Below are positions 681 to 8,393 of a stretch of DNA of 24,184 nt, in pieces (the first letter of the stretch is position 1; every line of letters begins with the position of its first letter). The DNA comes from a virus. The notes under the pieces are model-generated. The model saw only the letters and a program-made list of their open reading frames with translations, was not told where the DNA came from and ran no database searches. The stretch is from positions 1 through 24,184 of the IMG/VR virus record IMGVR_UViG_3300042866_002428; one strand, written 5' to 3'. Position numbers and translations under genes: made by a program.

Positions 681-1022
681 ATGGAACAGAAAAAGATAGT
701 CCCAAAAGAAATGGAAATTGAAATCATTGAAGAATCAGATATGGAATTCGTTCCGCGTGGGCGTAAATCTAATCTTTCTGATGATTTCGTAAAAAACATT
801 AAGAATAGCATTGAGAAATCAAATGCTGTTTCTATGAAGAAATTTGTCATTCTTAAGGAATTCACAATTCCTTCGGATTTGACTAATCAAAAGGATATCA
901 AAAACTATAAGGCTACGACTTCGGCAATGCTTCGGGGTTTGGCTAAGCGTTTGGGTTATTCTTCAGAAATTCGTTGGCATAAGGAAACAGTTCCTGCTAT
1001 TCGTTTCTCATTGAAGAAATAA
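681..1022 (+). CDS. family A small basic protein (FVPRGRKSN motif), AT-rich copy
   Basis: A 113-residue protein of unknown function. The ATG is preceded by AAAGGA eight bases upstream. After an acidic, Glu/Ile-rich start comes DMEFVPRGRKSN (residues about 21-32), which is shared almost exactly with the two minus-strand proteins at 1488 and 2247. The rest has the same plan: a helix, a strand with hydrophobic and Lys residues, a helix rich in Ala/Arg (SAMLRGLAKRLG), then a closing strand EIRWHKETVPAIRF. The family alignment argues for a small DNA- or RNA-binding protein, but that is inference. It is the only plus-strand member, has a longer N-terminus, and its codons are strongly AT-rich, unlike the GC-rich copy at 1488. 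It has its own terminator at 1053-1087, so it is a single-gene unit. Confidence 0.8.
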   Translation: MEQKKIVPKEMEIEIIEESDMEFVPRGRKSNLSDDFVKNIKNSIEKSNAVSMKKFVILKEFTIPSDLTNQKDIKNYKATTSAMLRGLAKRLGYSSEIRWHKETVPAIRFSLKK

Positions 1023-1487: not shown

Positions 1488-1766
1488 TCAGGACTTGCGC
1501 ACCGCCTGGGGGATACCAGTGGTGGACCAGTGGATGGTCACGGTGACCCCTGCCTGCTTGGCGGCAGATCGGATGACCGCGCCGACCCTTGCCTTCGCCG
1601 TCTTGGCATCCTTCGCCTTGAGATCAACGGCGAGGCTGTTGAGCAAGAGCGCCTTGCCCTTGGTAAGTTTACCAAGTGCGGCTACCAGTGCTGGCGGGAC
1701 ATTGGACTTGCGTCCACGGGGGACAAATTCCATATCCCCTTCATCTATAAACTCGTAATCGGACAT
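1488..1766 (-). CDS. family A small basic protein (FVPRGRKSN motif), GC-rich copy
   Basis: A 92-residue protein of unknown function. It begins MSDYEFIDEGD and contains DMEFVPRGRKSNVP at about residues 11-24. It continues with a helix (ALVAALGKL), a strand rich in Leu/Val/Lys, an Ala/Arg helix (ARVGAVIRSAAKQAG) and a final strand with TIHWSTTGIPQAVRKS. It has the same length and plan as the 2247 product, and roughly two thirds of residues look identical by eye. The DNA is GC-rich, near 60% by eye, in a setting that is mostly AT-rich, which suggests separate acquisition. The start has GAGGAAA just upstream. Near codon 33 the gene holds a perfect-armed palindrome, CTTGGTAAGTTTACCAAG (1659-1676), close to the intergenic repeat. 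A nucleic-acid-binding role is inferred from basic helices only. Confidence 0.8.
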   Translation of the reverse strand: MSDYEFIDEGDMEFVPRGRKSNVPPALVAALGKLTKGKALLLNSLAVDLKAKDAKTAKARVGAVIRSAAKQAGVTVTIHWSTTGIPQAVRKS

Positions 1767-2246: not shown

Positions 2247-2525
2247 TCAGGCTTTGCGTACTGCCTGCGGTGTACCGTCTACTGCCCAATGGATAGAGAC
2301 TGCCATTCCTGCCTGCTTTGCGCCCTGACGGATTACCGCACTAACGCGGGCTTTCTCTGTCTTAGCGTTTACAGCCTTGAGGTCAACTTTCAGGGCTGTA
2401 AGTTTGCAAGCCTTACCCTTTGGCAAAGACGCGAACGCTTTCACCAAAGCCTCAGGAACATTGGACTTTCGTCCACGAGGAACGAACTGCATGTCGCCCT
2501 CGTCAATGAATTCATAATCTGCCAT
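2247..2525 (-). CDS. family A small basic protein (FVPRGRKSN motif), third copy
   Basis: A 92-residue protein of unknown function, equal in length to the 1488 product. I start it at the ATG at 2525 because AAAGG lies eight bases upstream and because the product then begins MADYEFIDEGD, matching MSDYEFIDEGD of its paralogue. The FVPRGRKSNVP motif, the Lys-rich strand (CKLTALKVDLK), the helix ARVSAVIRQGAKQAG and the end SIHWAVDGTPQAVRKA follow in the same order. Base composition is intermediate between the AT-rich 681 copy and the GC-rich 1488 copy. A one-mismatch copy of the intergenic palindrome (TGTAAGTTTGCA, 2397-2408) lies inside the gene. The protein may bind nucleic acid, but no direct evidence is visible. 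Confidence 0.8.
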   Translation of the reverse strand: MADYEFIDEGDMQFVPRGRKSNVPEALVKAFASLPKGKACKLTALKVDLKAVNAKTEKARVSAVIRQGAKQAGMAVSIHWAVDGTPQAVRKA

Positions 2526-2543
2526 GTCATTACCTTTCGTTAC

Positions 2544-2579
2544 TATCAAGCGGTATTGCTTGATAAGAGAAACATTATC
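2544..2579 (-). promoter_or_regulatory. -10 and 5' hairpin of the 2247 gene
   Basis: On the minus strand GATAAT (2574-2579) is followed eight bases later by the perfect hairpin TATCAAGC-AATACC-GCTTGATA (2544-2565), then GTAAC and the GAAAGG ribosome-binding site. The AATACC loop is identical to that of the 1488 gene. I cannot see a good -35 box. Confidence 0.5.
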
Positions 2580-2834
2580 GGAAGCCAAACACTAATGCGA
2601 GGTAATCAAACTGTAACAATGCGCTAGAACCCAATGCCCATATGAGATATATCAGAGGGAATGTTACAGTCTCATGACAATTCTATTACCCATGAGTAAC
2701 TTGAGTCAATTGTCTAAACTTACAAAGAGTGTCTCTAAACTTACATAAACATTACTTTATCGCTTCCATAAAGTACAAGCGTGTAAAGTTACAACCATGT
2801 ACTAAACCTTAACTTACATGCCTGCAAACTTACA

Positions 2835-4889: not shown

Positions 4890-4944
4890 TTGCAATATGT
4901 GTAAGTTTATGTGCTACACTGAAAGCGCAAGCAACAACGCTTGC
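4890..4944 (+). promoter_or_regulatory. promoter, embedded half-site and 5' hairpin of the 4965 gene
   Basis: TTGCAA (4890-4895) and an extended TGC-TACACT (-10 at 4915-4920) are 19 bp apart. TGTAAGTTTATG (4900-4911), a degenerate repeat copy, lies between the two boxes. Six bases after the -10 begins the hairpin GCAAGC-AACAAC-GCTTGC (4927-4944), so the mRNA should start with it. GAAAGGG follows at 4951-4957. Confidence 0.55.
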
Positions 4945-4964
4945 CAAAACGAAAGGGTTCCAAA

Positions 4965-5387
4965 ATGGCAACTGCAAAAGCAACGCCAAAGCAGAAAGCA
5001 AAAGCACTAATGGCAAAAATTGCCAAAGCAAATGTGAAAGCATCAAAACTGCAAGTGAAACAAATTTTTGATCATTCAGTATTTGCTGAACAAATGTACA
5101 AAGCATTGCAAATGCCAAAAATGCCAGTAGGCGAGAATGCCCGCATCTGGGCAATGCAAAATGGCATTGCAGTTTTGCAGTATGAAGTGTGCGCAAAAAA
5201 ATCAACGCTGAATGACAAAGGGATTATGCGCCCAGAGTTGGCAGTGTTGGCAATTATGCAAACACTGATCAAGCATGATGCAAAGTTGTTGAATGTTGGA
5301 TATGTACGCTTTGCAGTGAATGGTACGCCAACTGCAAGTGATGTAAGCAATGATGATGCATACAAAGTTTTGCTTTACCGTAAATAA
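4965..5387 (+). CDS. family B protein, Lys/Ala-rich N-terminus, AT-rich copy
   Basis: A 140-residue protein of unknown function. The ATG at 4965 has GAAAGGG seven bases upstream and is preferred over a TTG at 4941 that lies inside the 5' hairpin. Residues 1-35 are rich in Lys and Ala (MATAKATPKQKAKALMAKIA), like a flexible nucleic-acid-binding tail. The body contains GENARIWAMQNGIAVLQ and ends YVRFAVNGTPTASDVSNDDAYKVLLYRK. The gene at 6618 encodes a paralogue: compare ASKLQVK with ASKEQVK, GENARIWAMQNGIAVL with GERRQWCLDNGATVL, and GYVRF with GYLRV, with matching length. The two genes differ greatly in base composition, this copy being AT-rich. It is a single-gene unit with its own promoter and terminator. 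Confidence 0.8.
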   Translation: MATAKATPKQKAKALMAKIAKANVKASKLQVKQIFDHSVFAEQMYKALQMPKMPVGENARIWAMQNGIAVLQYEVCAKKSTLNDKGIMRPELAVLAIMQTLIKHDAKLLNVGYVRFAVNGTPTASDVSNDDAYKVLLYRK

Positions 5388-6617: not shown

Positions 6618-7070
6618 CTAGGCGGTTCGGTAGATATAAACTAGGTTCGCCCGTGGATCACTTGGGTTCGCTTGGGCGGTAGCACTATCCAATACCCGTA
6701 GGTAGCCTAGTTTGCCAATGAATGCGCAACCCTTGACACTTGCCAAGGTGCTAAGGCGCTCCCGAAGGGTATTTTCGGGGCGGTCACTGATGGAGCGACG
6801 GACGATGGTAGAGATATCTAGCACCGTTGCCCCGTTGTCTAAGCACCACTGGCGACGCTCTCCGCCGTTGGTTCGGGTTGCCGTCCGCAAGTGTGCCGCG
6901 ATCATTGGGGCATTGGTAGCGGTTTCTAGTGCCGTCCAGTAGGCGAGAATTGCCTTCTGACGCTTAGCGTCATCGGCTCCCGTATCTACAGGCTTCACTT
7001 GCTCCTTACTTGCCGTAGCATTGTGGGACGCTACCGCCTTGGCGATAGTCCCCTTGGTGATCTTAGCCAT
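6618..7070 (-). CDS. family B protein, GC-rich copy
   Basis: A 150-residue protein of unknown function, paralogous to the 4965 product. The N-terminus is Lys/Ala-rich (MAKITKGTIAKAVASHNATA) and leads into ASKEQVK. A central GERRQWCLDNGATVLDIS corresponds to GENARIWAMQNGIAVLQYE, and the end GKLGYLRVLDSATAQANPSD...YIYRTA corresponds to the C-terminus of the paralogue. GGAAGG lies eight bases before the ATG. The gene is GC-rich by eye, in contrast to the AT-rich paralogue, although both sit in the same type of cassette (promoter, 5' hairpin, gene, terminator). This pairing, like family A, suggests repeated import of homologous genes from different sources. Confidence 0.8.
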   Translation of the reverse strand: MAKITKGTIAKAVASHNATASKEQVKPVDTGADDAKRQKAILAYWTALETATNAPMIAAHLRTATRTNGGERRQWCLDNGATVLDISTIVRRSISDRPENTLRERLSTLASVKGCAFIGKLGYLRVLDSATAQANPSDPRANLVYIYRTA

Positions 7071-7200: not shown

Positions 7201-7254
7201 TATATGACCGATATATCCGCATAATGACCAATTCTTCCCGCATAATGACCAATT
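7201..7254. repeat. three direct repeats (AT)ATGACC at about 21-bp period
   Basis: TATATGACC (7201), ATAATGACC (7221) and ATAATGACC (7242) recur at 20-21 bp. The last two sit in an identical 17-bp unit, CCGCATAATGACCAATT. This is two helical turns and fits tandem operators, upstream of the 6618 promoter. The rest of 7124-7375 shows no gene or other signal. Confidence 0.45.
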
Positions 7255-7375
7255 TTCGATAGGGGTGGGGGTATTGACCCCCCACGACAGAGGTTCGCCC
7301 CGCCTTCGGGAAGCTAGCATTACCCTCTTCCGATATGTACTCAATTTTTGTAAAATATGGGGTGGGGGCGGGGAT

Positions 7376-7409
7376 ATAAAAAAGAGACCGCACGAGGCGG
7401 TCTCTTTTC
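7376..7409. terminator. bidirectional terminator
   Basis: AGAGACCGC (7383-7391) and GCGGTCTCT (7397-7405) form a 9-bp stem with an ACGAG loop. The plus strand continues with TTTT and the minus strand with six or more T (A-run 7378-7383). On the minus strand it would end the FmdB-like gene transcript; on the plus strand it insulates the region to the right. Confidence 0.8.
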
Positions 7410-7410
7410 T

Positions 7411-7524
7411 CTTAGTGAGCTATAACGGTCCTAAGATAGCGAAACTCATGCTGCCGTGTTTGCGGGAACAAACAGGATCGACAGCACCACGAGTGCGCAT
7501 ATCTAGTATAGCAGCAATATTTTT
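7411..7524 (+). ncRNA. 23S rRNA helix 69-71-like segment, possible small RNA
   Basis: Positions 7420-7444 reproduce a universally conserved stretch of 23S rRNA, about E. coli 1913-1936, which is also the core of the I-CeuI target. I see one substitution: TAAGATAGC where rRNA has TAAGGTAGC. The flanks are not rRNA. TGAG (7416-7419) and CTCA (7445-7448) pair exactly around the segment, and CTTAG (7411-7415) can pair with CTAAG (7431-7435). A second hairpin, TGTTTG-CGGGAA-CAAACA, follows at 7457-7474 inside TGCTG/CAGCA, and a T-run ends at 7524. No plus-strand promoter is evident. On the minus strand the segment would be in the 3' UTR of the FmdB-like mRNA, antisense to rRNA. Whether an RNA is made is unknown. 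Confidence 0.4.
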
Positions 7525-7531
7525 TTGGGGG

Positions 7532-7714
7532 TTATTTGCGGGTGTTCCGGTAGAATCCAGTTCCTTTGAGTTCAATTACAGGAGGGGAATAGATTTGTTT
7601 TCGGAGGTTTCCACAAATATCACATATTAAATTTTCGGGTTGAATGTCTTCCAGAATTGATCTTTGTTCAGCATACCTATGATTGAGGGTACAGGTGTAG
7701 TCGTAGTGTGGCAT
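7532..7714 (-). CDS. FmdB-family zinc ribbon protein
   Basis: A 60-residue product starting MPHYDYTCTLNH. It resembles the FmdB/CxxC_CxxC_SSSS regulatory-protein family: an N-terminal PxYDY strand, a first ligand group (Cys 8, His 12 in place of the usual second Cys), a second knuckle CDIC (31-34), and the family-typical end VIELKGTGFYRNTRK. Such proteins are common small zinc ribbons in bacteria and phages, with no settled biochemical role. I place the start at 7714 because an upstream in-frame ATG would overlap the divergent promoter. TATACT (plus 7726-7731) would give a leader of only about four bases. The mRNA would end at the terminator at 7376-7409 after crossing the rRNA-like segment. 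Confidence 0.75.
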   Translation of the reverse strand: MPHYDYTCTLNHRYAEQRSILEDIQPENLICDICGNLRKQIYSPPVIELKGTGFYRNTRK

Positions 7715-7749: not shown

Positions 7750-8151
7750 ATGTACGAATACAATGTGAAGAAGGTGACTAAAATCGTTGATGGCGATACG
7801 ATTGATGTGGATATTGATTTGGGGTTTAATATTTCGTTTTCGCAACGGGTGAGGTTGGCGGGGATTGATACCCCTGAGTCACGCACCAAAGACCTCCGAG
7901 AGAAGGCTCTGGGGCTCGAGGTTAAAAATAAAGTGAAGGTTTCTATGGAGAGCGCCAAAAAGGTTGTTATAAAAACGGAGCTGCCTGATAGCACCGAAAA
8001 GTATGGGCGCATTTTGGGTTGGGTATATTTGGATGGGGCAACCAAATCTTTGAACGAACAACTCATCGAAGAAGGCTACGCATGGGGATACATGGGCGAA
8101 ACCAAAATCAAAGACTTCGATGCCCTCCTCGCCAAGCGCAACAATAAATGA
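7750..8151 (+). CDS. staphylococcal-nuclease-like endonuclease
   Basis: A 133-residue protein of the thermonuclease (SNase) family. KIVDGDTIDVD (11-21) is the first strand pair with the calcium-binding Asp. RVRLAGIDTPE holds Arg 35 (general catalysis) plus Asp 40 and Glu 43, and KYGRILGWVYLDG holds Arg 87. These catalytic residues happen to fall at the same numbers as in the S. aureus mature enzyme. LNEQLIEEGYAWGY matches the C-terminal family region. No signal peptide is present, so the enzyme should act in the cytoplasm, for example in host DNA degradation or DNA processing. The -10 box ends six bases before the ATG and no ribosome-binding site exists, so the mRNA is predicted to be leaderless. 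The stop overlaps the start of the ferredoxin gene (ATGA). Confidence 0.9.
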   Translation: MYEYNVKKVTKIVDGDTIDVDIDLGFNISFSQRVRLAGIDTPESRTKDLREKALGLEVKNKVKVSMESAKKVVIKTELPDSTEKYGRILGWVYLDGATKSLNEQLIEEGYAWGYMGETKIKDFDALLAKRNNK

Positions 8152-8393
8152 AAGTCTGGATTGACCAAGACCTATGTACTGGAGATGGACTGTGCGCCGA
8201 GATCGCACCCGATGTGTTTACGATGATGCCCGATGGTTTGGCATATGTACGCGAAGGGGACAAAATATTTGCCTCTTCTGTGGGAAACCCCGAAGGAGCC
8301 GAAGGTATGGCATCTTTTGGCGATGATCGACTGCAAGATGTGATCGAAGCTGCCGAAGAATGCCCCGGCGAATGCATATTCATCGAACCATAA
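8148..8393 (+). CDS. single-cluster ferredoxin
   Basis: An 81-residue ferredoxin of the actinobacterial 3Fe-4S type that usually serves cytochrome P450 or other oxygenases. MKVWIDQDLCTGDGLCAEIAPDVF carries Cys 10 and Cys 16, with Asp 13 where 4Fe-4S proteins have a Cys; Cys 72 in EECPGECIFIE completes three ligands, and Cys 76 is extra. The middle (residues 30-62) is a longer loop than in the shortest members. The start overlaps the nuclease stop, so the two genes are coupled. The 2OG-Fe(II) oxygenase gene converges from the right, 82 bp away; the gap has TTTAAAAGAC direct repeats but no clear terminator. A phage-borne electron carrier may support a host or phage redox enzyme, which is inference. 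Confidence 0.85.
   Translation: MKVWIDQDLCTGDGLCAEIAPDVFTMMPDGLAYVREGDKIFASSVGNPEGAEGMASFGDDRLQDVIEAAEECPGECIFIEP

Follow-up and report, generated by a model that had tools for sequence, protein, structure and literature searches.

Putative phage small RNAs complementary to helices 69–71 of 23S ribosomal RNA

Phage antisense small RNAs (sRNAs) such as the c4 RNA of P1/P7 and STnc6030 of BTP1 are short and base-pairing, and their complementary segments often lie in loops (PMC12197685). A word search of this review found no mention of ribosomal RNA (rRNA). Natural small RNAs complementary to rRNA are represented by the box C/D and H/ACA guide RNAs of archaea and eukaryotes. ROOL RNA (RF03087) and other large phage RNAs are structured noncoding RNAs in phage genomes, and a synthetic peptide nucleic acid (PNA) binds helix 69 (H69) of 23S rRNA in a sequence-specific manner and inhibits the growth of E. 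coli (Kulik et al. 2017, as cited in PMC7038079). The element described here resembles each of these in part. It lies on the minus strand of a 24-kb virus record with portal, ribonucleotide reductase, and two transfer RNA (tRNA) genes (IMG/VR record IMGVR_UViG_3300042866_002428; the whole stretch of 24,184 nucleotides is called the window). I conclude that this element and its relatives form an undescribed family of phage sRNAs, judged from their sequences to be antisense to 23S helices 69–71. Such an RNA was not found described in the open-licence papers searched. Rfam gave no match to the element at the gathering threshold and only weak ones in E-value mode (e.g., isrK with 24.3 bits vs a gathering score of 50).

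The 23S rRNA match and its distribution among phages

An earlier note on this DNA had read a 23S rRNA stretch at 24 of 25 bases in the window (Table 1), and the match proved real. The sole mismatch to the 23S 25-mer CTATAACGGTCCTAAGGTAGCGAAA is an A in place of G1930 (E. coli numbering). In 100 dinucleotide shuffles of the window, zero matches were found at three or fewer mismatches, and the chance expectation for such a match is about 1.5e-5 (24-kb window vs 4.5 kb of rRNA, both strands). A chance match was ruled out by these two results. A coding shadow was also ruled out, as the note had held: the minus strand reads FAILGPL*, and in relatives the flanks shift the frame, with a stop codon close upstream in one locus (L005). 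It was also considered whether the A reflects a host-specific 23S variant. In a scan of an 84,980-species collection, the A variant of the 17-mer core was not found in 23S genes; it was matched only three times, all inside apparent coding sequence. The predicted duplex of the window block with 23S rRNA has an energy of -40.7 kcal/mol (-43.3 for a perfect complement), and this pairing site is the best one for the window RNA on an rRNA-bearing contig. The bordering TGAG (7416–7419) and CTCA (7445–7448) were located as described in the note, but their pairing is not a conserved feature, since these flanks differ between relatives.

Conservation in related phages was checked, and the match is not shorter than first read. 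The exact 24-mer is present in 18 IMG/VR phage loci, all with the same A, plus one true 23S gene. The 17-mer core is present in 68 IMG/VR phage loci, and CTATAACGGTCCYAAG in at least 119 IMG/VR loci, a few of which are chance matches in coding sequence. In total, the number of IMG/VR phage contigs with a core of 16–17 nt exceeds 100. All 28 records checked, some of them up to 170 kb, contain it exactly once. The element is intergenic and occurs in unrelated phage groups, and its gene setting differs between them: it lies beside an fmdB-like gene (the window and its relatives), a capsid gene (L025), nrdA (marine phages), HNH/ruvC genes (freshwater phages), or others, and in L030, L052, and other loci there is no upstream gene on the same strand. 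The distance from the upstream stop codon is about 22–45 nt in the nrdA group and 1 nt in the capsid group. Seven Vibrio phage records have the core, and the core carriers among the INPHARED phages found are Vibrio isolates only. In five Vibrio phages (L075, L076, L079, L334, and L335), the element region is kept while the outer flanks vary (small genes, tRNA genes, a NUMOD4 HNH gene); in one of them (L334), the piece GGUGUCGCUACC is retained and the surrounding sequence is replaced. Departures from 23S that are common to many phages (G1930A; CTTGGG for CTTAGG) still pair via G.U. The complementarity extends 5'-ward by 3.4 nt vs 0.6 nt in controls (0/1000).

Since motif scanning biases conservation, loci were also collected by the neighbouring protein alone. 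The element was found in 36 of 58 nonredundant nrdA loci. Where the longest 23S complement 3' of nrdA is substantial, its position is 1911–1930, as it is in most of these 36 or 58 loci taken together, and the opposite-strand control is scattered. The fmdB loci keep the element and the promoter, and the ruvC loci are a mix of intact, partly diverged, and lost copies. No model match was obtained in isolates with a related nrdA (immuto, phi14:2, MaF61, Mx1, and S-TIM54).

Strand and architecture of the RNA

As indirect evidence of orientation, promoter position, terminator U-runs, and G.U stem pairs all place the RNA on the strand complementary to 23S rRNA, which is the minus strand in the window. 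Among 62 nonredundant elements scored, at least 51 have a strong terminator-like hairpin, and the U-run favours the 23S-complementary strand by 41:5. There were 22 promoter-like sites upstream on this strand, vs 4 in the orientation that would yield the other transcript. TGnTATA(A/C)T or TATA(A/C)T is recurrent 3' of the fmdB-like gene in relatives, and the extended -10 lies after the fmdB stop codon in this group. In the nrdA and capsid groups, no clear separate -10 promoter was seen. A 14-pair stem of the ruvC/HNH group has standard pairs in all 238 cells and compensatory changes in six pairs, and many of its G.U pairs would be A.C on the opposite strand.

Along the minus strand of the window, the upstream gene comes first, then the complementary block, a GC-rich hairpin, and the U-run; a block followed by a terminator hairpin is common to nearly all relatives. 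The window RNA has a predicted fold of -50.9 kcal/mol (z = -5.96 vs 200 shuffles). CUUAGG/CCUAAG pairing in a relative (L010) is analogous to the CUUAG/CUAAG hairpin of the window. The fmdB-like neighbour is kept in an actinophage-like group. The note had proposed, as one possibility, an antisense 3' untranslated region (UTR) of the FmdB-like messenger RNA (mRNA) aimed at 23S rRNA. The antisense part is supported: the RNA is on the minus strand, follows the fmdB-like gene, and ends at a terminator. The 3' UTR part fits less well, because an extended -10 belonging to the RNA itself follows the fmdB stop in this group, and in other phages the element comes after nrdA, capsid, or HNH genes, or after no gene.

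Table 1. Predicted features of the element and its upstream gene in the window
Feature	Position	Strand	Details
CTATAACGGTCCTAAGATAGCGAAA, match to 23S rRNA	7420–7444	+	23S C1914–A1938, 24/25 bases
Complementary block, 25 nt, RNA 5'-UUUCGCUAUCUUAGGACCGUUAUAG-3'	7420–7444	-	24 Watson-Crick pairs; one U.G pair (G1930)
Predicted sRNA gene, about 120 nt	7380–7499	-	start at about 7499, end at U-run
Extended -10 promoter element TGCTATACT	7505–7513	-	consensus match, predicted
Predicted hairpin CUUAG/CUAAG; loop shows ACCGUUAUAG, complement of the H69 loop side	7410–7436	-	fold prediction
Intrinsic-terminator hairpin and U-run, directly downstream of the complementary block	7378–7409	-	stem GAAAAGAGACCGC/GCGGTCTCTTTTT
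Gene for a small FmdB-like zinc-ribbon protein, next upstream of the RNA	7532–7714	-	PF09723 Zn_ribbon_8, E = 0.0016, below curated cut-off

A second block was found outside the core scan pattern. UCGCUAY is complementary to the adjoining 23S bases (about 1930–1937). Of 67 elements, 23 have it close to the core, vs 0.7 in shuffles (maximum 4), and 0 have its reverse complement there. In the fmdB group, including the window, the block directly adjoins the core; it lies downstream, in or near the loop of the terminator hairpin, in the nrdA, Vibrio, and other groups. This permuted order favours RNA pairing and disfavours a preserved DNA site. The nrdA-group RNA has three hairpins, P1, P2, and P3. 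CUUAGGA precedes P2, which reads CCG-NNN-UAGU-NNN-CGG and whose stem covaries (24 double-change cells vs 9.7 in shuffles, 0/500). The H69-complementary stretch itself is a covarying hairpin in nrdA phages. P3 is the terminator, with an invariant UCGCUAC loop. All the invariant pieces of the nrdA group are reverse complements of pieces of 23S 1912–1937. A covariance model of the nrdA set (R1) has a minus-strand match in the window at 7373–7452 (21 bits, E = 0.02) and finds several other groups, although significance is not reached in all.

Possible action on host ribosomes and rival explanations

These comparisons show that the element is conserved as a single copy, which strand corresponds to the RNA, that the hairpins have undergone compensatory changes, and that two blocks, each at a site of its own, are complementary to rRNA stretches that adjoin one another. 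Complementarity to a target in trans, 23S 1912–1937, is conserved; this target comprises H69, the linker, and the 5' strand into helices 70/71. That the key segments are complementary to one of the most conserved and essential spots of the ribosome suggests that the virus acts on host ribosomes by RNA pairing. The predicted gene of the window is probably a phage sRNA gene antisense to 23S 1912–1937, whose product is made in infection and docks on free or immature large subunits. The RNA would be produced during infection and pair with 23S rRNA as follows: CUUAGGACC on the linker, the linear core on 1914–1929, the UCGCUAY block on 1930–1937, and the UAGU loop of P2 in a kissing interaction with the H69 loop. 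Free or immature large subunits would be the docking target, since H69–H71 are exposed and flexible there. Pre-50S particles have flexible H68, H69, and H71 and cannot be joined by 30S (PMC11260487), and the anti-H69 PNA is inhibitory; thus, docking on immature or free subunits is favoured. The docked RNA may hold the subunit interface inactive and block late 50S maturation or 50S–30S joining, which I infer to be the best-supported mechanism. Host investment in new ribosomes would then stop, while 70S ribosomes already engaged would go on translating phage mRNA.

Several points weigh against this reading. The effect on the ribosome is deduced from the role of the target. Taken alone, the 16-mer has an intermediate predicted accessibility (mean 0.45), and the complementary stretch partly folds back in the window. 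The nrdA group retains only about 10+4+8 complementary bases, so that the RNA may act otherwise than by forming a simple duplex. Among the ruvC relatives, some are diverged (GACCGUUAUAG only, or UCGCUACC...UAUAG) or have no element. Finally, in the nrdA and capsid groups, which lack a visible separate promoter, the element may be the 3' end of the mRNA. Because of these two groups, action in cis is the main rival, although I regard it as unlikely. In such a 3' UTR device, H69–H71 pairing of a just-released 50S subunit would tether or recycle ribosomes on the phage's own mRNA (nrdA, capsid) or protect its 3' end. The position close behind the stop codon, at the transcript end, fits this well in both groups. 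However, a single copy per genome, the loci without a same-strand upstream gene, the extended -10 of the fmdB group, and upstream genes that are not all of highly expressed types do not.

Toxin endonucleases are known to target rRNA, and the conservation across phages would fit a counter-defence in which the pairing shields host 23S rRNA from an abortive-infection RNase or a modifying toxin. This is improbable, since an RNA paired at the subunit interface would be expected to inhibit translation by itself and a toxin with exactly this site was not identified. No better placed is a structured, protein-binding phage RNA that resembles a 23S complement by convergence or chance. The conserved parts in the nrdA group are indeed short (CUUAGGACCG, UAGU, UCGCUAC) and presented by hairpins, but each of them matches part of a single continuous 26-nt stretch of rRNA, and neither the second block nor the 5'-ward extensions depended on the core scan pattern for their detection. 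The note had also offered a decoy for an rRNA-acting enzyme or toxin. Such a decoy would be a sense-strand mimic of rRNA that titrates a modifying enzyme, an assembly factor, or a toxin. The sense strand does read as the H69 loop and linker, and a decoy could well take the form of an H69-like hairpin whose stem varies. It is disfavoured, and I give it slightly less weight still, because the promoters, the U-runs, and the G.U pairs each indicate an antisense transcript; on the sense strand, the hairpin would precede the 16-mer. A site acting at the DNA level, namely a homing-endonuclease (I-CeuI-like) target, a recombination site, or a scar of an rRNA-targeting element, is very improbable. The match overlaps the I-CeuI site, and small HNH genes adjoin one group. 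However, most groups have no adjacent nuclease gene, the blocks are in permuted order with the second one inside hairpin loops, and the stems covary; with the second block displaced in several groups and the core diverged in the protein-fetched sets, a contiguous DNA site is not preserved as such. The idea of an RNA-guided nuclease, raised by the HNH and ruvC genes that flank the element in one group, was dropped, since the other groups lack both.

Genomic surroundings and comparison with known systems

The window capsid protein is about 50% identical to those of Stanwilliamsviridae phages of Streptomyces, and the element was not found in two Streptomyces phages with such a capsid, StarPlatinum and Bmoc. 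Just downstream of the terminator of the RNA is a gene at 6618–7070 (-), whose product looks related to that of 4941–5387 (+) (both about 150 amino acids); a short noncoding direct repeat, CGCATAATGACCAATT, lies upstream of it at 7218–7256. Three other small proteins, encoded at 681–1022 (+), 1488–1766 (-), and 2247–2588 (-), have a common motif like [ED][EG][SGD]DM[EQ]FVPRGRKSN and look like paralogues encoded on the same phage fragment. The gene at 8148–8393 (+), beside a staphylococcal-nuclease-like gene, encodes a 4Fe-4S ferredoxin (Fer4_15, E = 1e-18).

Phages are known to redirect host ribosomes by proteins. If the docking of the sRNA on the large subunit is true, a phage RNA that pairs with a functional 23S rRNA helix conserved throughout life would represent a novel means of ribosome control, a natural template for anti-ribosome oligonucleotides, and a probe for late large-subunit assembly and bridge B2a. 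Because the target is near-invariant, one solution can work for phages whose hosts differ widely, in agreement with the broad distribution. Direct testing is possible with isolates such as Vibrio phage PWH3a-P1 on V. natriegens, where the expected antisense transcript contains CUUGGGACCGUUAUAG. In its widest form, the proposal is tentative: a widespread class of viral RNA may control bacterial ribosomes by docking on 23S helices 69–71, through kissing and linear pairing, and selectively stop the maturation or joining of new large subunits. It may then be the first natural rRNA-targeting antisense RNA in the bacterial world known to me.

The ROOL RNA of Lactobacillus phage LfeInf (L077, 2939–3484) has a weak resemblance to the core (23/27), which is at chance level. 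Near its 5' end, TTACCTATAAAGCACCTAAGACGTGGT shows a weak similarity to the 23S core together with the GTGGT hairpin of the marine elements, probably by chance. A link to ROOL was dropped, since this weak match lies inside a different fold; ROOL RNAs are also far larger than the present elements. Neither C/D nor ANA/ACA boxes were found at conserved positions on reading the alignments, and no guide RNA of Rfam was matched. Unlike the C/D and H/ACA guide RNAs, the present elements are in bacterial viruses, end at an intrinsic terminator, and lack that organisation. The anti-H69 PNA is a man-made oligomer, whereas the present RNA would be natural, structured, and phage-encoded. The sRNAs of the c4 and STnc6030 type pair with mRNAs or sRNAs, whereas the present elements are complementary to the universally conserved 23S rRNA.
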